Source: Hyphomicrobiales bacterium
Lineage (GTDB): Bacteria; Pseudomonadota; Alphaproteobacteria; Rhizobiales; Aestuariivirgaceae
NCBI GenBank assembly: GCA_016185245.1
Contig: JACPNZ010000018.1
Coordinates: forward strand, 186,001-250,000
Direction: 5' to 3'
DNA length: 64,000 nucleotides
Both the position numbers and the translations under genes were made by a program. Within the stretch, counting starts at the first letter, position 1. Each line of letters begins with the position of its first letter. The notes under the pieces were generated by a model. That model ran no database searches, was not told the origin of the DNA, and worked only from the letters and a program-made list of their open reading frames with translations. This document shows, in pieces, positions 9,642 to 24,255 of the stretch.

Positions 9642-9817
9642 CTGGTCTCCCTTGTCGCTTCGATTTCCGTTGATTTCCCGATGGCGGGTGGCAGCCTGAC
9701 ATTCTAGCATGGCAGAACGCAACTCACTCATGATTGTGGAACAAATATTCCGAATTGACTTTATTTTGGAATTGTTGTTTCGTCTTGTCAAGAACCCAAC
9801 GGCCACGGGAGGCATTC
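9642..9817. promoter_or_regulatory. Bidirectional iolG / iolC control region with IolR-type operators
   Basis: A 176-bp divergent spacer with an AT-rich core at 9730-9790. Bases 9738-9751 read GGAA-CAAATA-TTCC, a perfect GGAA-N6-TTCC palindrome. Bases 9768-9781 read GGAA-N6-TTTC, one mismatch, exactly 30 bp downstream and thus on the same helix face. TTGACT at 9755-9760 is a good -35-like hexamer for iolC, so both operators would flank or overlap that promoter, consistent with repression. GGGAGG at 9808-9812 region is the iolC ribosome site. Confidence 0.7.
9738..9751. promoter_or_regulatory. Perfect GGAA-N6-TTCC operator (IolR type)
   Basis: Palindrome with both arms intact. The same consensus has been described for the RpiR-type IolR repressor of inositol genes in Sinorhizobium. 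Its place between iolG and iolC, next to a one-mismatch copy at 9768-9781, supports the assignment. Binding itself is inferred. Confidence 0.7.
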
Positions 9818-11734
9818 ATGGCGTCGCATTCCAGCGAAACCCGCCGGCTTGACGTCATAACGGTCGGACGCTGCTCGGTCGATCTCTACGGGCAACAGAT
9901 CGGGTCGCGGCTTGAGGATGTCGCCTCCTTCGCCAAGTCGGTCGGAGGCTGTCCCGCCAATATCGCCATCGGAACGGCACGGCTTGGCCTGAAGTCCGGT
10001 CTCATTACCCGCGTCGGCGACGAGCAGATGGGGCGCTACGTCAAGGAGCAGATGGGGCGCGAGGGCGTGGCGCTCGATGGCATCGTCACCGATCCGGCCC
10101 GTTTCACCTCGCTGGTGTTGCTGTCGGTCGAAAACGACAAAACCTTCCCTCTTATCTTCTATCGTGACAATTGCGCCGACAGCGCCATGAGCGAAGCCGA
10201 CATCGACGAGGCCTTCATCGGCCGGGCGGCCTCGGTCTTGGTGACGGGCACGCATTTCTCCAAGCCCAATCTCGATGCGGCCCAGCGCAAGGCCATGCGG
10301 CTCGCCAAGGCGCGCGGCGCGAAGGTGATCCTCGACGTCGACTACCGGCCCAATCTCTGGGGCCTTGCCGGACTGGCAGCGGGCGAGGAACGCTACATCA
10401 AGTCGGACAAGGTTTCCGAGCACCTCAAGACCATCCTCCCCGGCTGCGACCTGATCGTCGGCACCGAAGAGGAAGTCCACATCGCCGCCGGCAGCGAGGA
10501 TACGCTCACGGCCCTCAGGACGATAAGGTCGCTGTCCAGGGCGACGATCGTGCTGAAGCGCGGCCCCATGGGCTGCGTGGTCTATCCGGACGCCATTCCC
10601 GATGCCATCGACAAGGGCATCGTGGGCAAGGGCTTTCCCATCGAAGTCTACAATGTATTGGGCGCCGGCGACGCCTTCCTGTCGGGTTTCCTGCGCGGCT
10701 GGCTCAAGGGCGAGCCGCTCACAACCAGTGCCACCTATGCCAATGCCTGCGGGGCCTTCGCGGTGTCGCGGCTCTTGTGTTCGCCCGAAATCCCGACTTG
10801 GGACGAGCTGCAATATTTCCTCAAGCACGGCAGTCCCCACAAGGCGCTGCGCCAGGACGAGGCGATCAATCACGTCCACTGGGCCACGACCCGGCGCAAG
10901 CAGGCCGACAAGCTCCTGGCGCTCGCCATCGACCACCGCATGCAGCTCGAGGATATGGCCGACAAAGTGGGGGCACCGCGCAGTCACATCTCCGCGTTCA
11001 AGCGTCTGGCCATCGCGGCGATCGGCGAGGTTTCGGCTGGCCAAGCCGGGTTCGGCACGCTGCTCGACGATACCTATGGCCGCGAGGCCATGTTCGATGC
11101 GGCGAAGCTCGGCCTGTGGGTAGGGCGGCCCCTGGAAAGGCCCGGCTCGCGGCCCCTCGAGTTCGAATTCACCCAGGACGTCGGCGCCCGCCTGGTCGAA
11201 TGGCCGGTCACTCACACCATCAAATGCCTGGCCTTCTATCACCCCGACGATCCGGCGGAGCTGAAGACCGGGCAGGCCCTGAAGCTTCGCACCCTTTACG
11301 AGGCGGCCCGCAAGGTGGGCCGCGAATTGCTGATCGAGATCATCGCCGGCAAGCATGGGGCGCTCACCGACGACACCATTCCGCGGGCGCTCGACGAGCT
11401 CTACGGGCTAGGCATCAAGCCCGACTGGTGGAAGCTCGAGCCGCAGGTGTCGGCTAAGGCCTGGGACAACATCGGGGCCACCTTGGCGCGGCATGATCCC
11501 TATTGTCGCGGCATTGTGCTGCTCGGGCTCGAAGCTCCGGAAGAAGACCTCGCCAAGGCCTTCGGCGCCATCAAGGGCCACGGTGCGGTCAAGGGTTTCG
11601 CCGTTGGCCGCACCATCTTCAACCTGGCGGCCCAGCAATGGCTGGACGGCAAGATGTCCGATGCCGCGGCAACCGCGGATATGGCCGAGCGCTTTGCCAG
11701 TCTTGTGGACTTGTGGAACAAGGCGCACGGCTGA
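9818..11734 (+). CDS. iolC: 5-Dehydro-2-deoxygluconokinase fused to DUF2090 (IolC-IolJ-type)
   Basis: Bifunctional inositol enzyme of 638 residues. The N-terminal half is a PfkB/ribokinase-family kinase with G-G-C-P-A-N-I-A near residue 45 and the catalytic G-A-G-D near residue 281. It phosphorylates 5-dehydro-2-deoxy-D-gluconate. The C-terminal half (about 345-638) is a DUF2090 domain, which in proteobacteria is annotated as the aldolase splitting the product to DHAP and malonate semialdehyde, so it replaces a separate iolJ. ATG at 9818 follows GGGAGG, and upstream codons to 9734 fall in the promoter. iolD follows after 27 bp. Confidence 0.93.
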   Translation: MASHSSETRRLDVITVGRCSVDLYGQQIGSRLEDVASFAKSVGGCPANIAIGTARLGLKSGLITRVGDEQMGRYVKEQMGREGVALDGIVTDPARFTSLVLLSVENDKTFPLIFYRDNCADSAMSEADIDEAFIGRAASVLVTGTHFSKPNLDAAQRKAMRLAKARGAKVILDVDYRPNLWGLAGLAAGEERYIKSDKVSEHLKTILPGCDLIVGTEEEVHIAAGSEDTLTALRTIRSLSRATIVLKRGPMGCVVYPDAIPDAIDKGIVGKGFPIEVYNVLGAGDAFLSGFLRGWLKGEPLTTSATYANACGAFAVSRLLCSPEIPTWDELQYFLKHGSPHKALRQDEAINHVHWATTRRKQADKLLALAIDHRMQLEDMADKVGAPRSHISAFKRLAIAAIGEVSAGQAGFGTLLDDTYGREAMFDAAKLGLWVGRPLERPGSRPLEFEFTQDVGARLVEWPVTHTIKCLAFYHPDDPAELKTGQALKLRTLYEAARKVGRELLIEIIAGKHGALTDDTIPRALDELYGLGIKPDWWKLEPQVSAKAWDNIGATLARHDPYCRGIVLLGLEAPEEDLAKAFGAIKGHGAVKGFAVGRTIFNLAAQQWLDGKMSDAAATADMAERFASLVDLWNKAHG

Positions 11735-11761
11735 GGCCGGCGGAAACATGGGAGTAGACCG

Positions 11762-13615
11762 ATGAGCAGGACCATCCGTCTCACGGCAGCGCAAGCCCTG
11801 GTGAAGTTTCTCACCCGGCAGATGACCACGGTCGACGGCAAGAAGGTGCCGATCTTCGCCGGCATGTGGGCGATCTTCGGCCACGGCAATGTTGCCGGCA
11901 TGGGCGAGGCGCTGTTCCAGCATCGCGACGAGCTGCCGACGCTCAGGGCCCAGAACGAACAGTCGATGGCCCACGCGGCAATCGCCTATGCCAAGACCAT
12001 GCGGCGGCGCCGGATGATGGCCTGCACCACATCCATCGGTCCGGGGGCGCTCAACATGGTGACGGCGGCGGCGGTCGCCCATGTCGACCGCCTTCCGCTG
12101 CTGCTCGTTCCCGGCGACATCTTCGCCAACCGCAAGCCCGATCCGGTGCTGCAGCAGATCGAGAATTTCGGCGACGGCACGGCCTCGGCCAATGACTGCT
12201 TCAAGGTGGTGTCGCGATTCTTCGACCGTATCATGCGGCCGGAACAACTGATCCCGGCCCTCAATCGCGCCATGACGGTGCTGACCGATCCGGCCGACTG
12301 CGGGCCGGTGACGCTAGCCTTCTGCCAGGACGTGCAGGCGGAAGCCTATGACTACCCCGAGAGCTTTTTCGCCGAGAAGCTGTGGTCGCAGCGCCGGGCG
12401 CGCCCGGACGAGACGGAACTTAGCGAAGCCGTCCGTGTACTGAGGAGTGCCAAGAAGCCGGTGATCGTGGCGGGCGGCGGCGTGCTTTACTCCGAGGCCT
12501 CGGAGGCGCTATCGGCCTTCGCCAGGCGCCACGGCATCCCGGTGGTCGAGACCCAGGGCGGTAAGTCGTCGCTGCCCTTCCTGCACGAGCTCAACCTGGG
12601 GGCGGTGGGGGTAACCGGCACCGGCGCTTCCAACCAGGTCTGCGCCGATGCCGACGTCGTGCTGGCGGTGGGTACCAGGTTGCAGGATTTCACCACTGGC
12701 TCCTGGTCACTGTTCCAGAATCCGGCCAAGGCCATCATCGGTCTCAATACCCAGATCTTCGATGCGACAAAGCACCGGGCCCTGCCGCTGATCGCCGACG
12801 CCAAGGTCGGCCTTGAAGAGCTTTCCGCCAATCTCGGTAACTGGTCCGCGCCCGAGGTCTGGACGAAATCGGCGAAGGACGGTTTCAAAGCCTGGATGAC
12901 CGAGGCCGACAAATTCACCGCCGCCGGCAACGCCGAGCGTCCCTCCGACGCCCAGGTGATCGGCAGCGTGCAGCGGGCCCTGGGCCGCGACATTTCGGTA
13001 CTGTGCGCCGCCGGCGGACTGCCGGGCGAGCTGCAGAAGCTGTGGCAGGCGAGCTATCCCTCGTCCTATCACCTCGAATACGGCTTCTCCTGCATGGGCT
13101 ACGAGATCGCCGGCGGGCTGGGAATGAAAATGGCCCAGCCATCCCGCGAGGTCGTCGTTATGGTGGGCGACGGCTCCTATATGATGATGAATTCGGAACT
13201 CGCCACATCGGTGATGCTGGGCATCAAATTGACCGTCGTGCTGCTCGACAATCGCGGCTACGGTTGCATCAACCGGCTGCAGCATGCCACTGGTGGCGAG
13301 CGTTTCAACAATCTCTACGACTACAATACCGTGCAGGAGGTTTCGCCGCAGATCGATTTCGTGATGCATGCCCGGAGCCAGGGGGCGATCGCCTCGAAGG
13401 CGGCATCGCTCGCCGACCTCGAAAAGGCCTTGGTCGCGGCGAAGGACAACGACCGGACCACGGTCATCGTCATCGACACGGACCCGATGATATCGACCGA
13501 TGCCGGCGGCAACTGGTGGGACGTGGCGGTGCCCGAGGTCTCGGTCAGGCCACAGGTTCAGGCGGCGCGCAAGAACTACGAAAGGGCGCTCATGTCGCAA
13601 CGGGTTGGCGATTGA
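11762..13615 (+). CDS. iolD: 3D-(3,5/4)-trihydroxycyclohexane-1,2-dione hydrolase
   Basis: ThDP-dependent enzyme that opens the cyclohexane ring in inositol catabolism. The 617 residues follow the acetolactate-synthase fold: N-terminal pyrimidine-binding domain, central Rossmann-like domain, and C-terminal ThDP domain with the G-D-G-S-Y followed about 25 residues later by the N-R-G-Y-G diphosphate/Mg motif. Length and order (iolC-iolD-iolB) match inositol operons. Its substrate is normally made by IolE, which is not encoded in this window. Confidence 0.93.
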   Translation: MSRTIRLTAAQALVKFLTRQMTTVDGKKVPIFAGMWAIFGHGNVAGMGEALFQHRDELPTLRAQNEQSMAHAAIAYAKTMRRRRMMACTTSIGPGALNMVTAAAVAHVDRLPLLLVPGDIFANRKPDPVLQQIENFGDGTASANDCFKVVSRFFDRIMRPEQLIPALNRAMTVLTDPADCGPVTLAFCQDVQAEAYDYPESFFAEKLWSQRRARPDETELSEAVRVLRSAKKPVIVAGGGVLYSEASEALSAFARRHGIPVVETQGGKSSLPFLHELNLGAVGVTGTGASNQVCADADVVLAVGTRLQDFTTGSWSLFQNPAKAIIGLNTQIFDATKHRALPLIADAKVGLEELSANLGNWSAPEVWTKSAKDGFKAWMTEADKFTAAGNAERPSDAQVIGSVQRALGRDISVLCAAGGLPGELQKLWQASYPSSYHLEYGFSCMGYEIAGGLGMKMAQPSREVVVMVGDGSYMMMNSELATSVMLGIKLTVVLLDNRGYGCINRLQHATGGERFNNLYDYNTVQEVSPQIDFVMHARSQGAIASKAASLADLEKALVAAKDNDRTTVIVIDTDPMISTDAGGNWWDVAVPEVSVRPQVQAARKNYERALMSQRVGD

Positions 13616-13689
13616 CGGGTGGCAGCATGGCAATCTGCAGCGGTGGCGAAAGCCTGGGAAGATTGCCAAGGACAACATAGGAGTTCGCC

Positions 13690-14484
13690 ATGTCGAAACT
13701 GTTGGTGAAGCCGAAACCGGGCGAAGGTCGGATTGCCCATGTGACGCCGGAAAACGCCGGCTGGAAGTATGTCGGCTTCGATCTGTGGAAGCTGAAGCCG
13801 AATGGCATCGCGGTTGGCAACGACTCGGATCGCGAAACCTGTCTGGTGTTCATCTCGGGCAAGGGGCAGGTCCATGCCGGCACGGCGGATTATGGCGTGA
13901 TCGGCGAGCGGACCTCGCCCTTCGAGGGCAACCCATGGTCGGTCTATGTTCCCGCCGGAATGACCTGGTCGGTGAAGGCCGCCGGCGATCTGGTGCTCGC
14001 CGTTTGCACGGCACCTGGCACGGGAAAGCTTCCGGCCCGCGTCATCCCGCCGGTGGGCCTGGTCAAGGAGACCCGCGGCAAGGGCAACAACATCCGCCAT
14101 GTGACCAACATCATTCCCGAATGGGATGCGGCCGAGAGCCTCCTCGTTGTCGAAGTGATTACGCCCGCCGGCAATACATCGTCCTATCCGCCGCACAAGC
14201 ACGATCAGGACAATCTCCCGCACGAATCGCTGCTCGAGGAGACCTACTACCATCGCATCAATCCGCCCCAGGGCTTCGCCTTCCAGCGCGTCTATACCGA
14301 CGACCGCTCGCTCGACGAGGCGATGGCGGTGGAGGACGGCGACGTGACGCTGGTGCCCAGAGGCTATCACCCCTGCGCCACCACCCATGGCTACGACCTC
14401 TATTATCTGAACGTGATGGCGGGCCCCAAGCGGACGTGGAAATTCCACAACGCTGCGGAACACGCCTGGTTGCTTACGGCTTGA
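13690..14484 (+). CDS. iolB: 5-Deoxy-glucuronate isomerase
   Basis: Converts 5-deoxy-D-glucuronate to 5-dehydro-2-deoxy-D-gluconate between the IolD and IolC steps. The 264-residue protein has the double-cupin layout of IolB. A metal-binding cluster occurs around residues 170-185 (P-x-H-K-H-D, then P-H-E-S-x-L-E-E), followed by G-Y-H-P in the C-terminal part. GGAG lies 7 bp upstream of the ATG. It ends the + strand iol run. Its last 11 bp overlap the convergent class II aldolase gene. Confidence 0.93.
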   Translation: MSKLLVKPKPGEGRIAHVTPENAGWKYVGFDLWKLKPNGIAVGNDSDRETCLVFISGKGQVHAGTADYGVIGERTSPFEGNPWSVYVPAGMTWSVKAAGDLVLAVCTAPGTGKLPARVIPPVGLVKETRGKGNNIRHVTNIIPEWDAAESLLVVEVITPAGNTSSYPPHKHDQDNLPHESLLEETYYHRINPPQGFAFQRVYTDDRSLDEAMAVEDGDVTLVPRGYHPCATTHGYDLYYLNVMAGPKRTWKFHNAAEHAWLLTA

Positions 14485-15454
14485 GCGTCTGCCGATATTT
14501 CTCGGCGTCCCAATTGACCAGCCGGTCGATGTCGTCGGCAGCGAGGGCAACGACCGGAGCGCCGGGCTCGACGCGGCGCAAGACATCGGCAAGGCAACGG
14601 CCCATGGGCTCGGTGGCGGGCTTGGCATCCCTGCGGATGACGACACCCTTGCCGGGCAAGGCCACAAGGGCTGCTCCGGAGCTCATGTCCGTGGCGACGC
14701 CAATTCCCAGGAAAACCACGTGGTCAGGATAGAATACGGCATCCTTGCCGCGTGACAGCGCCAGGCTGTCGGTGGCCAGTGCGTGAGTCTCGGTATCGGT
14801 GGCCGGGACATAGCCAGTCCACCGGCAGAGGCCGGCAAGGGTTTGGGCATCGTGCGGCACAGTGGTGCGGACGGGCCGGCGCAGGGCAGCCACGACGCGG
14901 CCGAGCAGGTCTTCGGCTTCGGCGACGCCTTCGGCGGCGACCACGAGGCCGTGATTGCCGAGAACCAGCACATCGACACCGGGGTGCAGGCGCCGCGCGA
15001 TTGCTCCCACCAGCGGTAGTCCCGGCCGGGCATAGGGAATGAAGGCCCAGTCGAAAGCGGCAAGCCTTTGCGAGAGTTGCCGTTCGGCATCGGCGCGGAT
15101 CGCCCAGGCGATAGTGTTGACGCAATGGACGTGGGCGACGACCCGTTGCGGCATGAGAGCATGAACGGTGGTCTCGATCGACGGTCGCAAGCCTCCGGCA
15201 TCGAGGTCGCGACGGAGGAATTCGGCGCAGGTCTCGCAGGCCGGGTCGTTCCTCGACAGCGCCGCCATCAGCCGCGAGTGATCGACCGGCACGAAGATGT
15301 CGCGGGTTGCGGCATCGCGGAGCCAGGTGCCGCTCGCCTTGATCCACATGACGCCGTCATGCTTCAGCGAAGTGTTGCCGCCGGCCGCCTGGACCAACAG
15401 GGGATCGTCGCCGACACGGGCCGAGAGGCGGCGAAGGGCTTCGAGTTCTACCAT
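14474..15454 (-). CDS. Class II aldolase/adducin family protein
   Basis: Zinc-dependent aldolase fold of 326 residues. The N terminus has the G-G-N-T-S phosphate-binding loop followed by W-I-K-A-S-G. The zinc ligands appear as H-V-H and, about 60 residues later, G-N-H-G. A Glu of S-I-E-T-T fits the catalytic acid. The N-terminal part resembles the aldolase half of rhamnulose-1-phosphate aldolase/dehydrogenase fusions, but no dehydrogenase domain follows; about 110 C-terminal residues are unassigned. It is the last gene of the six-gene operon and overlaps the HAD gene by 7 bp. It would be expected to split a ketose 1-phosphate into DHAP and an aldehyde. Confidence 0.82.
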   Translation of the reverse strand: MVELEALRRLSARVGDDPLLVQAAGGNTSLKHDGVMWIKASGTWLRDAATRDIFVPVDHSRLMAALSRNDPACETCAEFLRRDLDAGGLRPSIETTVHALMPQRVVAHVHCVNTIAWAIRADAERQLSQRLAAFDWAFIPYARPGLPLVGAIARRLHPGVDVLVLGNHGLVVAAEGVAEAEDLLGRVVAALRRPVRTTVPHDAQTLAGLCRWTGYVPATDTETHALATDSLALSRGKDAVFYPDHVVFLGIGVATDMSSGAALVALPGKGVVIRRDAKPATEPMGRCLADVLRRVEPGAPVVALAADDIDRLVNWDAEKYRQTLKP

Positions 15455-16212
15455 CGGAAGTCTTTCATCCAGAAATCGGGCTGCGGAGAGACGGCGGTGG
15501 GGTCGAGTCCCGCCGATACGCCGGTCATGACCAGGAGGGTCGAAAGACCGGCAGCCCTGCCGCCGGCCACGTCGTGCTCGGCGCTATCGCCGATGCATAG
15601 GATGTCCGCCGGATTGCCGATCAGATCGCAGGCGGCACTGTAGATGGCGGGATAGGGCTTCCCGATCCAGGTGACCTTGCCGCCCAGCTCCTCATAGAGG
15701 GACGCGATGGCTCCGGGGGCGGGCAGAAGTCCCCGGGGACTGAGCATCAACCGGTCGGGATTGCAGCAGATTGCCGGAACCGTCAGCCGACGGAGGAGCT
15801 CGCGGTAGTCGTCAAGCGTAGTCTTCGGCGCGTTGGTGCCGAGGATGAGAATCACCTCGGCATCCTCGGGACGTTCGACGAAGCCGACGCCGTCAAAACC
15901 ATAGTTCTCGCCATCCTTGCCGATGAGGTAGGCACGTTTGATGTCAAGCGACCGATAGGCCACTTCGCCGGAACTCACCGCATCGACGAACAGGTTGCGC
16001 GGAATTCCCATGCCTATGAGGCGCTGGCGATTAGCCTCGGCGCGCTTGCCGGAATTGGTCATCACCGCCACGGGTATGCTTCGTGCCTTCAATTCGCGCA
16101 GCACTTCGAGCGCGCCGGGATAAAGACTTTCGCCGTCATGGATGACGCCGAACTGGTCGATCAGCATGCCGCCGAAACGCGAAGCGATATTCGAGAGGCG
16201 GTCAATTCGCAT
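15448..16212 (-). CDS. HAD-IIA family hydrolase
   Basis: Predicted sugar- or polyol-phosphate phosphatase of 254 residues. The HAD nucleophile is D19 in L-I-D-Q-F-G-V; motif II is M-T-N-S near residue 52, and motifs III/IV are the lysine in G-K-P and G-D-S-x-x-x-D. The residue two after the nucleophile is Phe rather than the usual Asp general acid, as in the D-V-W-G subgroup of class IIA proteins. It overlaps the FGGY kinase upstream by 11 bp and the aldolase downstream by 7 bp. A phosphatase in a kinase operon could recycle a dead-end phosphate ester. Confidence 0.82.
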   Translation of the reverse strand: MRIDRLSNIASRFGGMLIDQFGVIHDGESLYPGALEVLRELKARSIPVAVMTNSGKRAEANRQRLIGMGIPRNLFVDAVSSGEVAYRSLDIKRAYLIGKDGENYGFDGVGFVERPEDAEVILILGTNAPKTTLDDYRELLRRLTVPAICCNPDRLMLSPRGLLPAPGAIASLYEELGGKVTWIGKPYPAIYSAACDLIGNPADILCIGDSAEHDVAGGRAAGLSTLLVMTGVSAGLDPTAVSPQPDFWMKDFRW

Positions 16213-17467
16213 GGCCGATGCCGCGCCAGGCCAGACGCGCCGTGCCGACGGCGGCGTGCTCGCTGAGAGAGGGCCTTTCCGGCACGCCGAGCATCCGCAG
16301 CCTTATCCTGGCCCAGGCCGTATTGCCGGCACCGCCGCCGGCGCTGCGGATCGAGGCGAGCGGCGAAGCGCCGAGTTCCGCCAGGCGGCGATAGCCCAGC
16401 GCTTCGATGGCGGCGATGCCTTCGAGCATGGCCTGGAAGAAGACGCGGTCGTCGTCAGGTCTCGGCGACAGGCGCGGGCGCAAGGCCGGGTCGTTGACCG
16501 GGAAGCGCTCGCCGGGTTTCGGCAAGGGGTAATAGTCGAGACTGGTCGAGCGATCGGGATCGAGCAACGGCGTGAGGCGCGCCATGTCGTCCCCGGAAAA
16601 ATACTTGGCGAGTACGTTGCCGCCGGAATTGGAAGCACCACCCGCCAGCCATCGATCGCCGATGCGATGGCTGTAGACACCGTATTGCGGCGCGAAGACC
16701 GGGCGGTCCGAGAGGAGCTTGAGGGTGAGTGTCGTGCCGAGCGACGTGACGCCGTCGCCGGGCTCGCTCGCCCCGCTCGCCAGGAACGCCGCACAGCCAT
16801 CGGTGGTGCCGGCAACGATGGTAACATCACGCGGCAGGCGGAAGCGCTCGGCAATATAAGGCAATATCGCTGCAATGCGTGTGCCCGCCGGCACGACGGC
16901 GGGAAACCGGCCCACGTCGAAACCGGTGCCGGCAATCCATCGGGGCCAGGCGCGGGCCACCGGATCGTAGCCCGATTTCAGCGCATTGCTCTCGTCGGTT
17001 ACATCGTATCGGCCGGAGAATCGGCCGGAGAGCCAGTCGGCCTGATGCAGAATGCGTGTGCCCCGGGTCGACAGCAGCAGGGCGCGGGCCAGCGGCGAAG
17101 TGGCACCCAGTGCTGCCGTCTCCCGCGGGGCGACCGCCACCACCACTGCCAGGTCGGCCGCTTCGGCCACGTCATTGTACATGGAGGCAAGGCCTTCGGC
17201 CGCGCCATCGGCCGCGATGGGCAGGATGGTGCCCGAGGTGCCGTCGACGGCGAGGGCGCGGACCCTGAGGTTCGTCAAGTCAAGCGCGTCGAGGGCTTGG
17301 GCGACGGCCTGCCACCAAAGGGCCGGATCCTGCTGACTGCGCAATCCGTCGGTGATCGGAGCGGGGATAGCTGCCTGCGACAGGGCCTTGAGTTGACTTC
17401 CGGCGTCGACGGCGGCAATGCGCGCGCCCGATGTGCCGACGTCGATGCCGAGGACCACGTCGGTCAT
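16202..17467 (-). CDS. FGGY carbohydrate kinase, compact SePSK/ribulokinase-like
   Basis: Sugar or polyol kinase of 421 residues, shorter than typical xylulokinases (about 490). The N terminus has the D-V-G-T-S-G-A-R phosphate-1 loop and V-D-G-T-S-G, resembling the compact group of cyanobacterial/plant D-ribulose kinases. The central G-T-T-D-G-C catalytic Asp and the C-terminal S-A-G-G-G-A adenosine motif are intact, so it looks active. It is the fourth gene of the operon, 15 bp after the GpsA paralogue stop and overlapping the HAD gene by 11 bp. Confidence 0.85.
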   Translation of the reverse strand: MTDVVLGIDVGTSGARIAAVDAGSQLKALSQAAIPAPITDGLRSQQDPALWWQAVAQALDALDLTNLRVRALAVDGTSGTILPIAADGAAEGLASMYNDVAEAADLAVVVAVAPRETAALGATSPLARALLLSTRGTRILHQADWLSGRFSGRYDVTDESNALKSGYDPVARAWPRWIAGTGFDVGRFPAVVPAGTRIAAILPYIAERFRLPRDVTIVAGTTDGCAAFLASGASEPGDGVTSLGTTLTLKLLSDRPVFAPQYGVYSHRIGDRWLAGGASNSGGNVLAKYFSGDDMARLTPLLDPDRSTSLDYYPLPKPGERFPVNDPALRPRLSPRPDDDRVFFQAMLEGIAAIEALGYRRLAELGASPLASIRSAGGGAGNTAWARIRLRMLGVPERPSLSEHAAVGTARLAWRGIGHAN

Positions 17468-17482
17468 CGGTTGCCCCCGCCC

Positions 17483-18541
17483 TCATGCCGGGCCATGAAA
17501 CTCCGCCCACGGAATATCGAGCGGTCGGTCGTCGACCAGCGCCGAAAGAAGAGCGCGGGTGAGAGGCAGCGCGGAAGCCTCGAGCCGGCCCTCACGCATC
17601 ATCGCGGCAAGTGTGGACGCCACCGCCACTCCCAGCTCGGCGCCTTCGATGGTATCGCCCCGCATCGGCCCGTCCTTGGTCTGGCGATAGGTTAGGCCGC
17701 GGCCCAGATTGTGGCCGAGCCGGGAATTGCGGCCGGCTTGGCAGGTGACATAAAGATCGCCGGCGCCCGGCATTCCCCAGACGCTCGCCTCGCTGCCGCC
17801 CAGAGCCCCGGTCAGCCGCGACAACTCGATGATCGCTTGGTCGAAAACGATCGCCGCAGCATTGTGATTGAAGGCCTGGTTCTCGCTAGCCGCCATGGTT
17901 TCGAGGCGGCCGGCGGCCCAGCCCACGGCGATGGCGAAGAAGTTCTTGAAGGCGGCGCAGACCTCGACACCGATCAGGTCGGCCGAGGCGCGTGGGTGAT
18001 AGTAATCGCCCGCCAGCATCGCGCACAGGCGTTCGGCGAAGGCAAGATCGCGCGAAGCGATGACGGTTCCGGTGTGGCGCCGCACCGCCAGCTCGCCGGC
18101 GATGCATGGGCCGCCGATGGCGGCGATCGGCAGTGCGAGGCCGGTGCGGCGTTTCACTTGCGCCGCGACATGGTCGGGGAGGGTGGTGAGCGTTGCTTCT
18201 TCCGCAAACATACCCTTGGTGATCATCACCACCGGGATGGGGACCTTGAGGGTCTCGCACAGGCGCTCGATGGCCCAGCCGATGCCGGCCGAACTGACGC
18301 CGAGGACAATCAGATCGGTGTCGTCGCCCAAGGCTTCGGCGAAGCCGTCGTGATGGAAAGCCGCAACACCGTCGGGAAGCGTGACGTTGAGGCGCGGATG
18401 GCAGCTCATCGCCTTGACGTTGTCGATGATGTCGCGGTCGAGATGGGTGCCGACCAGACGCACCGCATGGTCCCGGTCACGGGCCGGCAGGCACATGGCC
18501 GAGCCCATGACGCCGGCGCCGAGAATGGCGATGGTACTCAC
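17483..18541 (-). CDS. NAD(P)H-dependent glycerol-3-phosphate dehydrogenase paralogue (GpsA-like)
   Basis: Dehydrogenase of 352 residues. The N-terminal dinucleotide fold has G-A-G-V-M-G-S-A, then K-G-M-F, G-G-P-C-I-A-x-E and the catalytic-lysine segment A-A-F-K-N-F, all as in GpsA. The ending G-D-L-Y-V-T-C and R-N-S-R-L-G-x-x-L-G is also family-like. GTG at 18541, behind AGGGGCGA, is preferred over the upstream frame limit at 18595, which would overlap the preceding gene. Its operon context points to a catabolic substrate rather than housekeeping phospholipid synthesis. Confidence 0.82.
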   Translation of the reverse strand: MSTIAILGAGVMGSAMCLPARDRDHAVRLVGTHLDRDIIDNVKAMSCHPRLNVTLPDGVAAFHHDGFAEALGDDTDLIVLGVSSAGIGWAIERLCETLKVPIPVVMITKGMFAEEATLTTLPDHVAAQVKRRTGLALPIAAIGGPCIAGELAVRRHTGTVIASRDLAFAERLCAMLAGDYYHPRASADLIGVEVCAAFKNFFAIAVGWAAGRLETMAASENQAFNHNAAAIVFDQAIIELSRLTGALGGSEASVWGMPGAGDLYVTCQAGRNSRLGHNLGRGLTYRQTKDGPMRGDTIEGAELGVAVASTLAAMMREGRLEASALPLTRALLSALVDDRPLDIPWAEFHGPA

Positions 18542-18551
18542 GCGATCGCCC

Positions 18552-19871
18552 CTATTGCCGGTCTCTGGCGAGGAAGTCGTCGAGCAGACCCGCATCGTCG
18601 GCGAGGTCGAGGAAGGACCAGCGGTTGCGCACGTCGCGGGCGTATTTCATGGCATCGCGCCAGAGCTTGCGCGACAGCCCGAGCTCGGTCGCAGTGGTCG
18701 GGCCACCGGCGGCGGCCAGGGTTGACTGCATCGCAACCGGGTCCATGACGAAGCTCCCAAGCTCCTGGCGAAGCTCCGGCCACAGGGCGCGAAGCTTCTC
18801 GTTGAAGGCGGCGGCACCGGTCCGGTCGAAGGATTTCTTCTTGGCCTCGGCATAGCACATGCGGCCGATCGCCTCGCCGTAGCGGGCGACGAATTCAGTC
18901 TCGACGATATGGGTGGGCCGGATGTCCGGCGGCTGGTCGAGGGCCAGAAGCTCGCACTGCAGCCGGGCGATGGCCAGCGAGGCCACCCCCACCTGCTGGC
19001 CATGGGTGGTGCCAGGATGGGCGCTGCCGGCAAACATGTCGAGCCAGTGCGACACCTGGTGCTCGCCCATGGAGCCGTGATGAGACACGCCAGTGAAGCA
19101 CACGCCGAGGCCGCAAAGTGTCAGCACGCGGTGCAGACGGCCGTTGGCCTCCACCGAGTGCTTGGCCAGATCGGCTGCCGACTTGAGCATCGCCGGCTCG
19201 TCGTTGGCGATCAGGGCATAGGGAACGCTCGAGTAGAAGGTATCGAACAGCCGGTGCGAGGCCCACCAGTCGATCTGGGCGGTGGAGCGGCAGAGCGAAT
19301 CGCCCAATCCGGCGGCCGACAGCCAGGTGGGGGCCGTGGCCGAAATCTTGAGATCGATGAAGATGCCGCGCGGGGCGTGCGCCGGCAGCGAGGTCTTGTA
19401 GCCGTTGGCGAGGGTGACCGAAGCGGTCGATGCGGCGTAACCGTTCATCGAGGCGGCGGTGGCGAAGACGGCATATTTGCGGCCGTCCTTGAAAGTTGTG
19501 TACTTGCATGTGTCCGAGAGCGTGCCGGAGCCCACCGCGACGACGGCATCGGCGTGGCGAGTCCTTTCCCGCACCATGGCGATGGTCGGCTCGTCGCATT
19601 CGAGATCGCCGGGGAGAACGATCTCCTCGACGGCGGCGAGGCCCTTGAGATGCTTGGCCACCCGCCGGCCCATGGCCTCGTGAGTATTGGCGTCGCTCAC
19701 CACCGCCAGGCGCTTGCCAAGCTTCAAAGGCGCCAGCATATCGGCTTCGCCGCCATCGAGGGTTTCCTCGATGCGGATAGCTTCGAAGGGCACCTTGGCG
19801 GCGGCACCGGTTTCGGGAGTCCTCCAGTTGCCGGCGACAATGTCGTCGATCAGGCTATTCCAGTCGGTCAT
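18552..19871 (-). CDS. sn-Glycerol-1-phosphate dehydrogenase family protein (AraM/EgsA-like)
   Basis: Metal-dependent polyol-phosphate dehydrogenase of 439 residues in the dehydroquinate-synthase-like/iron-alcohol-dehydrogenase superfamily. It has the NAD-binding G-S-G-T-L-S-D-T loop, A-A-S-M-N-G-Y, and candidate metal ligands Asp (G-L-G-D), His (G-E-H-Q-V-S-H) and His (H-P-G-T-T-H-G). Family members reduce DHAP to sn-glycerol-1-phosphate (the archaeal lipid headgroup enantiomer) or oxidise related phosphorylated polyols. Start overlaps the upstream kinase stop by 4 bp (ATGA). Substrate unknown. Confidence 0.85.
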   Translation of the reverse strand: MTDWNSLIDDIVAGNWRTPETGAAAKVPFEAIRIEETLDGGEADMLAPLKLGKRLAVVSDANTHEAMGRRVAKHLKGLAAVEEIVLPGDLECDEPTIAMVRERTRHADAVVAVGSGTLSDTCKYTTFKDGRKYAVFATAASMNGYAASTASVTLANGYKTSLPAHAPRGIFIDLKISATAPTWLSAAGLGDSLCRSTAQIDWWASHRLFDTFYSSVPYALIANDEPAMLKSAADLAKHSVEANGRLHRVLTLCGLGVCFTGVSHHGSMGEHQVSHWLDMFAGSAHPGTTHGQQVGVASLAIARLQCELLALDQPPDIRPTHIVETEFVARYGEAIGRMCYAEAKKKSFDRTGAAAFNEKLRALWPELRQELGSFVMDPVAMQSTLAAAGGPTTATELGLSRKLWRDAMKYARDVRNRWSFLDLADDAGLLDDFLARDRQ

Positions 19872-21394
19872 GCTTGTGCTTTCGCGGCAAATGCGGTGAG
19901 CCTGGCATTCCAGGCGGAAAGCTGCGGCCAGAGATCGCGATAGACGGCGAGCAGCTCAGCGTAGCGGCGATGGGCGGCCGTCCGTGGACGAAAGGTCCTG
20001 GCTGGACGGCCGGCCATGGCGGCAGCAGCCTCCGGCACGGTGGCAAACCATTGGGCCGCCTTGGCCGCCGCCATGGCAGCGCCCAGCGCCGAAGCCTCGA
20101 CGGTTTCCAGCCGTTTCACCGGGCGGCCCGAAGCATCGGCGACGATCTGGCACCAGAGATCGGATTTGGCACCGCCCCCCATGATGACGAAATGGTCGAT
20201 TGGCGCGGTGGCTGCAGCGACCCCGTCGCTCATCATGGTCTGTTCGAGAGCGACACCCTCGAGGATGGCGCGATAGGCGTCGCCGCGCCGGTGATTGCCG
20301 GAAAGGCCGGCGATCAGACCGCGCGCCCCCGTATCCCAGTAGGGTGTCATACAGCCCGACCAGTAGGGCACCAACAGCAGGCCATTGCTGCCGATGGGGG
20401 CGGCCGCGGCTTCCCGCTCGAGGGTCGCGAAGATCCCCGAATGCCGTGCCGGATCGAGGTTGAACAGATGCTGCACCAGCCAGTTCACCAGAAAGGTGCC
20501 GGTGCGGATCGCCGTTTCGTGGATGTAGCCCTCGTCGGCGACGGCACCCATGGTGCGGAACACCGGATTGAAAGCGTAGGTCCTGCCGAAACTGCCCGAC
20601 ACGGCGGCCGTACCGAGATTGAGATAGGCGCGGCCTTTCACAAAGACGTTGGCGCCGGTGCCGGCGCACTGGCCATCGCCGCCGCCGGCAACGACCGGCG
20701 TTCCGGGCCTGAGACCGGTGAGCCTCGCTGCGGCCGGCGAGACCTCACCCATGATTTCGCCGGGCCGGACCAGTACCGGAAGCTGGCCGCGGCTCAAACC
20801 AACGGCACCGATCAGCCGGTCCGACCAGTCATAGGCGGCCATGTCGATGAGGCCCATGGGATCGGCGGAGGCGGTGGAGGTTTTCCACTCGCCGGTGAGG
20901 AAATGGCCGAGCACGCCGTGGACTTCGGCGGTCATGGCGGTCTTCTTCCACATGGCGGGCATGCGCTTGGCGAACCAGCGGCAGCGGGCGATGCAGGGCG
21001 TCACGTCGGAGGGCTTGCCGGAAATGCGATGAAGTTCATTGGCCCCGATCAAGGCGGCGAGTTCTCGTGCCTCGGCGTGGGAGCGCTCGTCGAGCCACAC
21101 TGTGCCGGGGCGCAAGGCCCGGCCTTTCGCGTCGAACTGGGCGAAGCTCTCGCGCTGGTTGGAAATGGCAAGAGCCGCCACCCGCTGCGGCGATACCTTC
21201 CTCAGAAGCTGGCGGAGAGCCTTGGCAAGCGCCCCGGTCCAGTCGGCCACGTCCTGTTCGAACCAACCGGGCTTCGGCAGCGACATCGGCACGGCGGCGC
21301 GGGCTTCGGCGACGGCGCGGCCGCGGCGATCCCAGGCGATGGCCTTGGTCGCCGTGGTCGAGGAGTCGATACCGATTACCAGGTCGCCGGTCAT
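19868..21394 (-). CDS. FGGY carbohydrate kinase, xylulokinase-like
   Basis: First gene of the six-gene operon; 508 residues, normal xylulokinase/glycerol-kinase length. Features: I-D-S-S-T-T-A-T-K phosphate loop at the N terminus, S-N-Q-R-E-S, P-G-W-F-E-Q-D, catalytic Asp in G-G-G-D-G-Q, and a C-terminal M-G-G-G-A-K adenosine motif. All catalytic signatures are present. The upstream 103 bp to the RTX protease stop should hold the operon promoter, but no hexamers stand out. The sugar or polyol is unknown. Confidence 0.88.
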   Translation of the reverse strand: MTGDLVIGIDSSTTATKAIAWDRRGRAVAEARAAVPMSLPKPGWFEQDVADWTGALAKALRQLLRKVSPQRVAALAISNQRESFAQFDAKGRALRPGTVWLDERSHAEARELAALIGANELHRISGKPSDVTPCIARCRWFAKRMPAMWKKTAMTAEVHGVLGHFLTGEWKTSTASADPMGLIDMAAYDWSDRLIGAVGLSRGQLPVLVRPGEIMGEVSPAAARLTGLRPGTPVVAGGGDGQCAGTGANVFVKGRAYLNLGTAAVSGSFGRTYAFNPVFRTMGAVADEGYIHETAIRTGTFLVNWLVQHLFNLDPARHSGIFATLEREAAAAPIGSNGLLLVPYWSGCMTPYWDTGARGLIAGLSGNHRRGDAYRAILEGVALEQTMMSDGVAAATAPIDHFVIMGGGAKSDLWCQIVADASGRPVKRLETVEASALGAAMAAAKAAQWFATVPEAAAAMAGRPARTFRPRTAAHRRYAELLAVYRDLWPQLSAWNARLTAFAAKAQA

Positions 21395-21497
21395 GTGAAC
21401 TCAAGTGGGTGAGCCCGGAACCTAGTTGGCAGGCGCCCACTGTGCAAGCATCGGGGAATGATTGTCAGCCGGCAATCGCTCCGGCGTGCTGGCGGGC

Positions 21498-22835
21498 CTA
21501 AAGGATGAAATCGCTCGCCGTGAGGGCGATCTGGCCGGTGAAGCCAACCTCGAAATCGGGCTTGCCATCGCCATTGACGTCGCCCTCGACCAGGGTTTCG
21601 GCCAAACCTGACAGCACGATCAGCTGGCCGGCGAGACCGGTGAAGGCCGCCACCAATTGGAAGGCATTGTCGCTGCCGCCGGAAACTGCGTCGATCAAGG
21701 CCAGCGAGACATGATCGATTCCGTGGACGAAATCGGTGATGACGTCATGGATCGAAGCCACCGGAGCATCCGATAGCGACTTGAACAGAAACGTATCGGC
21801 GCCTGTGCCGCCGGTCATGCGGTCGGCGCCGCCATCGCCAAGGATCCGGTCGTTTCCGGCCCCACCCGACAGGGTATCGCGGCCGGCTCCACCCCGCAGG
21901 ACATTGGCGAGACCGTTGCCGGTAATGCTGTCGTTGCCGCCGCCGCCAATGGCATTCTCGATGTCGGTGGAGAAGGCGATGGCGATGTTGTCGGTCATGC
22001 CGTCGCTGTCGGAAAAAGTACCGGGATTAAGGTCGATGCGCGAGGGAGTCGAAAATCCCGACAGGTCGAGGGTGTCCTTGCCACCGCCATCCCAGATGGT
22101 GAGGATGGGGTGAGGGTTGCTGGCGAAGTCGAAGACCGGACTGGCGAAACTGGCGTGGAAGCCATAGCGAGTATCGCCGGTCCTGGTTGCGAAGTCGGCG
22201 CCATAGAGCTGCTGCATGGCGAGGACATCGTGCAGCATCGGCGTCTGCGGATAGTATTCGCGACCGTTGCTGGCGATCCAGTCGGCGCCGGTGTTGGAGC
22301 CGTCGAAATAGGACATCACCGTGTACATCAGGCTGTCCTGGGCATAGGGGGCATCGGTGGCGTAGGTCGGATTACCGCCATTGTAGTTGCCCGGGTGCTC
22401 GAGGCCGAAGGCGTGTCCCATCTCATGGATATAGGCGAGGAAGCCCCAGGCGCCGACCTTCGGCGTCACCAGATCGTTGGTGCCGCTGCTCGAATTGTAT
22501 TGCGGATTGAGCCATATGGAGCCGGATGGGCCGCCGCCGCCGGGGAGATAGGCCTGGGCGTAGCCGATGCTGGTCGTGGTGTTCTGGACGGTGATCTCCG
22601 GAGATAGGGCGGTCTCAACCAGCTTCGGTGCGATGAGGTCGTCCCACAGCGAGATGGCGAGGCGGGCGGCCGTCTGCTGGGAAGCGACGGCCTGGGAAAA
22701 GCCCTGGCCTTCGGCCGACAATGACCAGGTGGGTGCCGTCGCCGGAAAGCCGAAGGAAATGGTGTCGCCGCTCCAGCCCACTCCGGCCCTGAGCAGATTG
22801 CTGACGATGTGGCTGGTGGTCCAACTTATCGGCAT
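21498..22835 (-). CDS. Serralysin-type zinc metalloprotease with RTX repeats
   Basis: Predicted secreted M10B protease of 445 residues. The zinc site H-E-M-G-H-A-F-G-L-E-H-P lies near residues 138-149, and the Met-turn is M-S-Y-F about 45 residues later. RTX nonapeptides (G-G-A-G-x-D-x-L-x-G-G-A-G-N-D type) occupy about residues 290-345. The M10-type C-terminal module follows and ends in D-F-I-L, typical of type I secretion signals. No N-terminal signal peptide is visible, as expected for ABC-exported proteins. No type I secretion genes occur in the window. Pairs with the CAP-RTX gene directly upstream. Confidence 0.92.
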   Translation of the reverse strand: MPISWTTSHIVSNLLRAGVGWSGDTISFGFPATAPTWSLSAEGQGFSQAVASQQTAARLAISLWDDLIAPKLVETALSPEITVQNTTTSIGYAQAYLPGGGGPSGSIWLNPQYNSSSGTNDLVTPKVGAWGFLAYIHEMGHAFGLEHPGNYNGGNPTYATDAPYAQDSLMYTVMSYFDGSNTGADWIASNGREYYPQTPMLHDVLAMQQLYGADFATRTGDTRYGFHASFASPVFDFASNPHPILTIWDGGGKDTLDLSGFSTPSRIDLNPGTFSDSDGMTDNIAIAFSTDIENAIGGGGNDSITGNGLANVLRGGAGRDTLSGGAGNDRILGDGGADRMTGGTGADTFLFKSLSDAPVASIHDVITDFVHGIDHVSLALIDAVSGGSDNAFQLVAAFTGLAGQLIVLSGLAETLVEGDVNGDGKPDFEVGFTGQIALTASDFIL

Positions 22836-22917
22836 GGGATTCGGGATCTTGCAGGGGGCGCCTGCACCAATCTTGCCGCAATTGGTGGGTCGCCGATAGG
22901 GGATAATGACGCTTCAA

Positions 22918-24255
22918 TCATAGAATGAAATCGATTGCAGTCAGGGCATGGCTGCCCGTGAGCGACAGGTGAAGATCGGCGATGCCGTCACCGTTGACAT
23001 CGGCTTCGACGATGGTCTGGGTTGGCGAGACCTGTAAGCGAAGTTCGCCGGCACTGGATGTGAAGGTCCCGGTGCCACCGCCAGCGGTGAAGTGGAAAGC
23101 ATCGTCCGTGCCGCCGGTGATGGCGTCGATGCGCGACAGGTCGATCCGGTCGATGCCGTCCTGGTAGTCGGCGATCGTATCGCCGGCGGCGCGCGAGTCG
23201 GTCACCGCCTTGTAGATGAACCGGTCGGCACCGCCACCGCCGGTCAGCGTGTCGTTGCCGGCCCCGCCGATTAGCTTGTCGTTGCCGAGGCCGCCCGACA
23301 GGATGTCGTTGCCGCCGGCGCCGATGAGGGCGTTGTTGCCGCTGTTGCCGGTCAATGTATTGGCAAAAGTGTTGCCCTGGCCGTTGACGTTGTCGATGCC
23401 GATCAGCCGCAAACCGAGCGAAGACTGGGTGAGCGTGGTTGTGACATTGCTGAAAATCGTGTTGCCGTTGACCAGGTCGATCTTCACATTGCTGCCGGCG
23501 AGCGCGATGGCCGCGCCCATGGTCGCGGCAAGGCCGCCGCCGGAGAATTGCACCTCCACATTGCCGGTTGCCAGGGTGCCCAGGGCATAGCCGCCGACCG
23601 TGCCGGTGGAGGCCGTTCCGATCACCGAGGAATTCTGCAGCAGCGATACGGTGCGGCCGCCTGCCCCCTCACCGATCGAGTAGAACTTGTCGGCGTCGGT
23701 GTCGGTATAGTTGACGCCGGTGACGAACACGGTGGTGCCCGACTTGGCGAAATCCTCGGTGGTCATCAGGCTGTTGTAGGTGGTGCCGCCGGACGTGAAG
23801 GGGCCGGTGAGGCTGCCGAGGCCAACTTCGCGGAACGTGCCGTTGAGGATGTTTTCCCGGTGCCCGGCGCTCAGGAACAGCATCTGATGGTGATAGACCA
23901 CTTGTTTATCGCCATCGATGGCACCGGTCGAGCCGTTCCAGACGATGTTCTCCCCCCAGGTCCACGAGCCCGAGAAAACATAGCCGGCACTCGTCATGCG
24001 GCCGCCGGGCGAGGAGCCGCCGGCACCGGTGTGGGAAAACGTGTCGGTGTCGAGCATCCATTGGCTGTGAGCGTCGGCGGCGGCATTGAGCAGGGGATTG
24101 AAGGCGAGAACCTGCTTGGGGCTCGCCGCGATGGTGCCGGCGGCCAGACCCTGATTGAGATCGATGCCATAGCGCTTGGCTTCGCCGGCGGGGTCCATCC
24201 GCGCCCGGTTGATCAGTTCGAGGAGCAATTGCTCGCGTGCCGTGGCTTCGGCCAA
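22918..24255 (-). CDS. CAP-domain protein with RTX repeats
   Basis: Predicted secreted protein of 445 residues. Residues about 5-170 form a CAP/SCP domain with F-S-H-T, W-G-E-N-I and G-H-R-E-N-I-L. A Gly/Thr-rich linker follows, then RTX nonapeptides at about 300-345, and a C-terminal module nearly parallel to that of the neighbouring protease, including E-A-D-V-N-G-D-G and the final D-F-I-L. The start appears to be TTG at 24255 behind AGGAG; no ATG gives a better start. Function of CAP domains in bacteria is poorly defined. Confidence 0.9.
   Translation of the reverse strand: MAEATAREQLLLELINRARMDPAGEAKRYGIDLNQGLAAGTIAASPKQVLAFNPLLNAAADAHSQWMLDTDTFSHTGAGGSSPGGRMTSAGYVFSGSWTWGENIVWNGSTGAIDGDKQVVYHHQMLFLSAGHRENILNGTFREVGLGSLTGPFTSGGTTYNSLMTTEDFAKSGTTVFVTGVNYTDTDADKFYSIGEGAGGRTVSLLQNSSVIGTASTGTVGGYALGTLATGNVEVQFSGGGLAATMGAAIALAGSNVKIDLVNGNTIFSNVTTTLTQSSLGLRLIGIDNVNGQGNTFANTLTGNSGNNALIGAGGNDILSGGLGNDKLIGGAGNDTLTGGGGADRFIYKAVTDSRAAGDTIADYQDGIDRIDLSRIDAITGGTDDAFHFTAGGGTGTFTSSAGELRLQVSPTQTIVEADVNGDGIADLHLSLTGSHALTAIDFIL

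Follow-up and report, generated by a model that had tools for sequence, protein, structure and literature searches.

What does a bacterial operon do that combines two FGGY kinases with dehydrogenases of the families that act on sn-glycerol-1-phosphate and on sn-glycerol-3-phosphate, a phosphatase and an aldolase? The question is raised by six minus-strand open reading frames (ORFs) without internal stops at positions 14474-21394 of a 64,000-nucleotide stretch of a Hyphomicrobiales bacterium (GenBank assembly GCA_016185245.1, contig JACPNZ010000018.1, positions 186,001 to 250,000), hereafter the window. They encode, in the direction of transcription, an FGGY kinase of xylulokinase/glycerol-kinase-like type (KIN1; 508 amino acids; 19868..21394), a dehydrogenase of the AraM/EgsA superfamily resembling sn-glycerol-1-phosphate dehydrogenase (G1PDH-like; 439 amino acids; 18552..19871), a paralogue of the NAD(P) glycerol-3-phosphate dehydrogenase GpsA (17483..18541), a second FGGY kinase close to SePSK (KIN2; 421 amino acids; 16202..17467), a HAD-IIA phosphatase of the TIGR01459 family (254 amino acids; 15448..16212) and a RhaD-like class II aldolase without a fused short-chain dehydrogenase/reductase (SDR) domain (326 amino acids; 14474..15454). 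This six-gene form appears to be a derived, importer-less variant of a larger operon. Our leading interpretation, to which we assign a probability of roughly 40%, is that it represents the enzyme half of an alphaproteobacterial ATP-binding cassette (ABC) importer operon for the catabolism of a polyol, perhaps a C5 compound (pentitol), from which the importer and regulator have been lost.

The six frames are tightly packed, with gaps of −4, 10, 15, −11 and −7 bp between successive genes. The families named for them in the earlier note are borne out by the ORFs, Pfam and NCBIfam, and its statement that gaps and overlaps reach at most 15 bp stands (−11 to +15 bp), with the correction that the GpsA-like gene most likely starts at GTG 18541 and not at ATG 18595, because relatives begin at the matching VSTxxILGAGVMG.

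Comparison with relatives reveals what surrounds these genes elsewhere. The G1PDH-like protein was searched for in 289 genomes of the class (18 matching at 1e-20) and in 61 relatives (26 matching), the window genome being included in both counts, and the stretches around the matching genes were read with genes of the window and of its relatives as references. Permeases and ATPase were sought at the locus, and the solute-binding protein (SBP) and regulator both at the locus and genome-wide. The resulting same-genus set comprises 21 genomes with a close G1PDH orthologue (64-82% identity), some of the stretches being cut by contig ends. In this orthologous operon, the genes for an SBP and two permeases precede KIN1, the SBP lying upstream of KIN1 in 20 of the 21 genomes and on a separate contig in G295. 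An ABC ATPase gene follows the G1PDH-like gene in all 21 (one cut by a contig end), and a SorC/DeoR-type regulator gene precedes KIN2 at a coverage of at least 73% in 16, the remainder consisting of a fragment in G319, an absence in G296 and three contigs that end before it. The other enzymes are less evenly represented within these stretches (KIN2 in 15, one of them 48% identical, HAD-IIA in 14 and the aldolase in 10). Close iol genes lie on 12 of the 21 stretches (13 when a distant iolD of 51% in G313 is counted), and these shared neighbours identify the locus as orthologous.

None of the genes for SBP, permeases, ATPase and regulator is present at the window locus. The place of the ATPase gene (about 350 amino acids in relatives) is taken by a 10-bp junction (18542..18551, minus strand), that of the regulator gene found there in most relatives (about 330-350 amino acids) by a 15-bp junction (17468..17482, minus strand), and a 103-bp gap ahead of KIN1 (21395..21497, minus strand) leads to an M10 peptidase gene where relatives carry the SBP and two permeases. 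Genome-wide, the SBP occurs at 1e-60 in 24 of 37 genus genomes, comprising all 21 other genomes with a close G1PDH orthologue as well as G290, G293 and G308, which lack a close G1PDH match. The window genome is the sole one of 22 with a close G1PDH-like enzyme but without the cognate SBP, and its assembly, searched with a relative's SBP and regulator, yielded only weak paralogues. Because relatives on both sides in the tree carry the importer and regulator genes, their absence is most readily read as a loss in the window lineage.

Among the weak SBP paralogues, the one with the best context belongs to a smo-like polyol locus on contig C2 of the same genome (L184:4572-12094), which contains a CUT1-type SBP, two permeases, an ATPase and an SDR (importer parts and SDR named from their translations), a SorC/DeoR-type regulator and an enzyme assigned, below the cut-offs, to the fructuronate-reductase/arabinitol-dehydrogenase family. 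We rejected this importer as a specific replacement for the lost one, its SBP being present in 29 of the 37 genus genomes.

The neighbourhood also extends beyond the genus. The loci in named genomes, the best 80 of 524 confirmed stretches and thus nearest relatives rather than a census, include Mesorhizobium, Sinorhizobium, Rhizobium, Bradyrhizobium, Shinella, Aureimonas and Rhodobacteraceae, together with a few metagenome-assembled genomes (MAGs) named outside Alphaproteobacteria. Genes were counted in 10-kb flanks at 50% coverage and 33-45% identity, in categories that pool several reference proteins. Of these 80 loci, 60 extend over more than 18 kb around the G1PDH-like gene; in this subset, a KIN1-type kinase occurs in 59, an SBP in 57, a regulator in 56, a HAD phosphatase in 55 (IIB 49, IIA 10), an ATPase in 51, an SDR in 39, an aldolase and a member of the glycerol-3-phosphate dehydrogenase family in 36 each, and KIN2 in 9 (13 of all 80). 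All categories were absent from the controls (0/5) except the ATPase (3/5), these controls being few: five 18-20-kb stretches of the same genome, two of which overlap by 6 kb and three of which had already been taken for weak SBP paralogues. Conservation of the neighbourhood exceeds chance, and its core in these mostly alphaproteobacterial loci consists of the G1PDH-like protein, an FGGY kinase, a regulator, an SBP and a HAD phosphatase. The earlier note had read the six genes as one pathway, a view to be abandoned should other genomes lack the neighbourhood, and had suggested recording the transporter type beside it: conservation is evident in both the same-genus and the named loci, and the transporter is an ABC importer, of CUT1 type in 47 of the 60 long loci and of CUT2 type in 10. 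The exact six-gene set, by contrast, did not survive as a unit, since all five further enzyme families accompany the G1PDH-like gene in 5 of the 80 loci (L097, L099, L100, L113 and L122), each of which also contains SBP and ATPase genes. In annotated rhizobial loci, the gene order is kinase, regulator, G1PDH-like, HAD-IIB, GlpD and two permeases, followed by SBP, SDR, ATPase, bifunctional aldolase/SDR and GpsA-like (with gaps in some records), an order from which the Shinella and Acidiphilium forms depart.

Several variants of the locus were encountered in this survey. In a sister version, the G1PDH-like gene is accompanied by a XylB-type kinase, a CUT2 importer and a gene resembling ribulokinase/pentulose kinases, and usually also by HAD-IIB and GlpD (L182, L135, L148, L155, L157, L158, L162, L170, L171 and L173). 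Two rhizobial copies, L178:13974-21118 (R. etli CFN 42 p42a) and L131, are seemingly much reduced: no permeases, HAD-IIB or GlpD were detected, the G1PDH-like, SDR, ATPase and aldolase genes are retained, and the SBP of L131 was seen as its C-terminal part only. A version of the locus also turns up in a MAG labelled Candidatus Eremiobacterota (L133:10001-11299), reflecting either transfer or a binning error.

Families were confirmed for all six window proteins by Pfam and NCBIfam (Aldolase_II, HAD-IIA, FGGY_N/C twice, NAD_Gly3P_dh_N/C and Fe-ADH_2). The HAD phosphatase exceeds the TIGR01459 cut-off (177 versus 103.75 bits), and KIN1 lies below the curated cut-offs for the xylulokinase XylB (278/380 bits) and the glycerol kinase GlpK (180/590 bits). 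The G1PDH-like protein likewise remains below the curated G1PDH equivalog cut-off (134.6/413 bits) and conserves D191, H271 and H290, which we take to be the metal-ligand positions. AraM is its closest solved relative by profile and by predicted fold (best match 9h4x; 23% identity in the fold match), and superfamily, fold and D/H/H positions agree with both AraM and M. jannaschii G1PDH. The GpsA-like protein contains both the N- and C-terminal family domains and stays under the curated GpsA cut-offs (best 149/257 bits); another PF07479 protein, encoded elsewhere in the genome, reaches 181 bits against 78, which marks the window copy as a paralogue. The aldolase passes its Pfam cut-off (65.2 versus 22.2 bits), is not a RhaD/short-chain dehydrogenase fusion (65/567.75 bits, no SDR domain) and keeps E94 and an HxH...H motif (H108, H110 and H168), presumably the catalytic residue and putative Zn ligands by comparison with FucA/RhaD. 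KIN2 shows strong full-length similarity to SePSK (304 bits), whose residues D8, T11 and D221 fall in matching motifs and which has D-ribulose kinase activity (PMC4880283). KIN2 thus resembles SePSK-type kinases and is a candidate D-ribulose kinase.

Catabolism of a polyol or sugar with aldol cleavage yielding dihydroxyacetone phosphate (DHAP), as first suggested for these genes, is the best fit found. From family chemistry and gene neighbourhoods, we infer the reactions, their order and the type of substrate as follows. KIN1 would phosphorylate a polyol at a terminal carbon. The EgsA, GpsA and GlpD families oxidise the carbinol beside the phosphate on sn-glycerol-1-phosphate or sn-glycerol-3-phosphate; by the same chemistry, the G1PDH-like and GpsA-like enzymes, joined by GlpD in rhizobia, would oxidise the carbinol next to the phosphate of the polyol phosphate to give a 2-keto-1-phosphate, and with sn-1 and sn-3 enzymes side by side, either configuration at that carbon would be acceptable. 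A 2-keto-1-phosphate is what DHAP-type class II aldolases cleave, and the class II aldolase would convert it to DHAP and a short aldehyde. KIN2 may phosphorylate a free ketopentose such as D-ribulose, feeding the pentose phosphate pathway, and the HAD enzyme might strip phosphate from a dead-end or bisphosphorylated intermediate, the occurrence of two HAD subfamilies in the neighbourhood suggesting that a dephosphorylation step is needed. With the importer lost and the enzymes kept, the substrate would have to be taken up by a different system or be formed within the cell. A broader proposal, which is possible and in our view doubtful, is that G1PDH-family and GpsA/GlpD enzymes serve in Alphaproteobacteria as stereo-complementary oxidisers of polyol phosphates that feed FucA/RhaD-type aldolases, and that the window set, freed of importer and regulator, uses an internal or otherwise imported polyol.

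Clues to the substrate come mostly from relatives; the window itself contributes the likeness of KIN2 to the D-ribulose kinase SePSK. Their SBP is nearest, both by sequence and by fold (predicted model; about 24% identity), to structure 5IAI, which contains ribitol (PMC8468352). At this identity, and with maltose, trehalose and sulfoquinovose binders also near, ribitol is a hint only. In the Shinella CUT2 sister version (L182), one kinase passes the xylulokinase cut-off (503 versus 380 bits). Two same-genus genomes, G308 (L192:5171-16708) and G290 (L193:3113-14631), possess an SBP-KIN1-ATPase-GpsA-like-regulator block without the G1PDH-like gene; on its flanks lie one gene of tagaturonate-reductase type and two of Zn-dependent-oxidoreductase type. 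These flanking dehydrogenases, whose families were scanned in G308 only and scored below cut-offs, presumably resemble sorbitol/xylitol dehydrogenases. Finally, the FucA-like aldolases of relatives reach 168 and 167 of 300 bits for ribulose-1-phosphate aldolase.

A number of observations weigh against the polyol assignment. For those same aldolases, the best match is L-fuculose-phosphate aldolase (241 and 217 bits; cut-off 264), and the lower-ranking structures near the SBP are binders of maltose, trehalose and sulfoquinovose. In R. leguminosarum (776 bits) and Shinella (704 bits), GlpD exceeds the glycerol-3-phosphate dehydrogenase cut-off of 360 bits, and a same-genus importer ATPase that of the UgpC subfamily (504 versus 432 bits); glycerol compounds are therefore also pointed to and constitute a live rival. 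An aldolase accompanies the G1PDH-like gene in 1 of 12 long Mesorhizobium loci, and its limited occurrence across the 60 long loci indicates that aldol cleavage may not be obligatory; where it is missing, the pathway version may end differently or the gene may lie elsewhere. The SDR of unassigned type found in 39 of these loci would fit oxidation before phosphorylation as well, proteins P0001, P0003, P0004, P0005 and P0006 fall below every equivalog cut-off, and private changes are more numerous in the window aldolase than in any of the nine sequences compared with it (see below).

Four known systems bear comparison. The closest known analogue of the gene set appears to be the B. subtilis ara operon: we take this operon to contain the FGGY kinase AraB, the class II aldolase/epimerase-type AraD, the HAD-IIA phosphatase AraL and an ABC importer, and AraM, a bacterial G1PDH, is a G1PDH-fold enzyme with the same metal-ligand positions by profile and fold match. 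By contrast with ara, the present operon family adds GpsA/GlpD-type enzymes and a SorC-type regulator, and its G1PDH-like protein is 23% identical to AraM and far below the G1PDH equivalog cut-off. The placement of AraM in an ara operon is given in PMC5059525. The smo locus of S. meliloti (the polyol importer SmoEFGK, SmoS, MtlK and SmoC) likewise couples an ABC importer to sugar-alcohol catabolism, under a regulator resembling EryD of DeoR type (PMC10433430). Its enzymes oxidise the free polyol; kinases and dehydrogenases of glycerol-phosphate type characterise the present operon. The non-carboxylating pentose bisphosphate pathway of haloarchaea (PMC9700705) shares a HAD phosphatase and a FucA-type aldolase yielding DHAP and glycolaldehyde. 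Unlike the window operon, that pathway uses ribose-1-phosphate (R1P) kinase and ribose-1,5-bisphosphate (R15P) isomerase, and the window proteins score low for its families. The ery pathway of Brucella and Rhizobium, likened here by description, presumably proceeds through an FGGY polyol kinase and then a glycerol-phosphate-dehydrogenase-family enzyme under an EryD-type regulator; it differs, as we understand it, in leading through isomerases to erythrose-4-phosphate and in having neither a G1PDH-like enzyme nor an aldolase.

Four other substrates or roles can be envisioned. The substrate might be a sugar rather than a polyol, an unlikely but not negligible reading in which a (deoxy)ketose is phosphorylated at C1, a FucA/RhaD-type aldolase releases DHAP together with either lactaldehyde or glycolaldehyde, and these products are reduced or oxidised by the dehydrogenases. 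The aldolases are indeed of FucA and RhaD type, their best-matching families bear fuculose and rhamnulose names, the bifunctional aldolase/SDR of rhizobia scores above the cut-offs of two families and ketoses are common substrates of FGGY kinases; yet this leaves two or three glycerol-phosphate-dehydrogenase families unexplained, the SBP and dehydrogenase hints favour polyols, and no isomerase is named in the annotated loci read (the gene table of the plasmid has gaps, and no search was aimed at isomerases). Rather improbable is a glycerol-containing substrate (glycerol itself, one of its glycosides or a glycerophosphodiester) that would be taken up, KIN1 acting as a glycerol-type kinase and the G1PDH-like, GpsA-like and GlpD enzymes converting sn-glycerol-1-phosphate and sn-glycerol-3-phosphate to DHAP. 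Every dehydrogenase family present is a glycerol-phosphate one, and the rhizobial and Shinella GlpD and the UgpC-type ATPase exceed their cut-offs, but KIN1 falls well short of the glycerol kinase cut-off and matches xylulokinase better, neither the GpsA-like nor the G1PDH-like protein reaches its own cut-off, and aldolases, KIN2 and HAD enzyme would be superfluous; a glycosidase or phosphodiesterase was not noticed, although no search was aimed at them. We consider improbable a route like that of halophilic archaea, in which a ketopentose bisphosphate made by two kinases loses its 5-phosphate to the HAD enzyme, the aldolase yields DHAP and glycolaldehyde and an Fe-ADH-type enzyme reduces the latter. 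Superfamilies corresponding to the haloarchaeal HAD phosphatase, FucA-type aldolase and glycolaldehyde reductase (PMC9700705) occur in the window but far under the haloarchaeal cut-offs (ribulose-bisphosphate (RuBP) phosphatase 31/330 bits, glycolaldehyde reductase 25/550 bits), and KIN2 was found in only 13 of the 80 named loci. A role of the G1PDH-like gene in forming or consuming sn-glycerol-1-phosphate for lipids of archaeal or heterochiral type seems very improbable, despite the superfamily, fold and metal-ligand positions shared with AraM and M. jannaschii G1PDH: the score to G1PDH is low, the gene sits in relatives among importer, kinase and aldolase genes, and the G1P prenyltransferase PcrB matches only about 44-56 residues in 24 of 37 genus genomes, its cut-off being just passed in 2 of 37, the window genome not among them. 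The absence of PcrB does not close this route, given that bacterial PlsY and PlsC are reported to accept either stereo-form of glycerol phosphate (PMC13400652).

Two further explanations concern the state of the locus. The window operon could be a non-functional remnant heading for loss after deletion of the importer, a view favoured by the missing SBP, permeases, ATPase and regulator, by the lack of a close copy of SBP or regulator in the assembly and by the aldolase, which leads its set in private changes. We regard it as unlikely, in that six intact frames and their short overlaps are retained. In a test of 20 same-genus or near loci (rows below 90% coverage or 55% identity, or with a stop, were dropped, leaving 20 sequences including the window for KIN1, G1PDH-like and GpsA-like, 16 for KIN2, 15 for HAD and 10 for the aldolase), the window differs at otherwise invariant columns in 0/180 (KIN1), 6/174 (G1PDH-like), 1/119 (GpsA-like), 5/165 (KIN2), 3/97 (HAD) and 14/197 (aldolase), against 0 to 18 private changes in other single genomes. 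The value for the aldolase counts against full constraint on that gene, but the other five enzymes range from 0 to 6. The terminal branch is 0.176 for five of the six enzymes (the aldolase is missing from some taxa) versus 0.150 for iolB and iolD, in a comparison of eight rows (L060 and L106 are identical there, apparently one genome) that spans time before and after the loss, and the ratio lies within the 0.7 to 2.7 of other taxa with both branches non-zero. The window enzymes thus appear free of clear decay, with the catalytic motifs kept. An assembly artefact is more remote still: this is a draft genome (58 contigs, 97.2% complete), but the window lies within a 314.6-kb contig, the genes are absent separately at three places with junctions of 10 and 15 bp, and the cognate SBP and regulator were not found elsewhere in the assembly.

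The flanks of the operon complete the description. Its convergent neighbours are iol genes on the plus strand (9734..14484; an iolC-type fusion together with iolD and iolB, the latter two identified by synteny and translation), with iolG beyond the iolC-type fusion downstream of the operon. Upstream on the same strand lie the M10/RTX peptidase gene, one unscanned ORF and an amidohydrolase gene; two adjoining ORFs at 21498-24255 encode the M10 serralysin-like peptidase and a second protein with a similar-looking, RTX-like C-terminus by eye. No importer gene occurs among the genes scanned or read near the operon, with annotation reaching to about 27 kb, and promoter and terminator scans gave no excess over shuffled sequence. 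Many same-genus relatives carry, upstream of the importer and beside a FucA-like aldolase, a third FGGY-type protein in divergent orientation (FGGY_C_2; L053, L055-L061 and L085-L088 in part, L092 and L187), which was not found at the window locus. Several genus members (G298, G312, G313, G316, G317, G320, G322 and others) have a second, distant G1PDH-like protein (about 30-34% identity), which in G313 (L083) lies near iol-like genes.

The operon is real, conserved and part of something larger than first described. The enzyme families and the overall logic are familiar ones, unlike the pathway as such. No study of this cluster was found in the literature searched, a scope that leaves most subscription journals outside, and an FGGY family paper (PMC3245297) contains no mention of glycerol-1-phosphate, AraM, EgsA or words in rhizobi-. 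EgsA/AraM is marked as present in Alphaproteobacteria in PMC5059525. Bacterial genes labelled G1PDH enter debates on the lipid divide, and here a widespread, mostly alphaproteobacterial G1PDH-family clade forms part of a probably catabolic operon linked to an importer, and no clear G1P prenyltransferase of PcrB type was seen in the genus examined. The substrate question is directly testable in Sinorhizobium, Mesorhizobium and Rhizobium strains with the locus, and the window itself offers a clean case of a catabolic operon seemingly stripped of uptake and control while its enzymes are kept.

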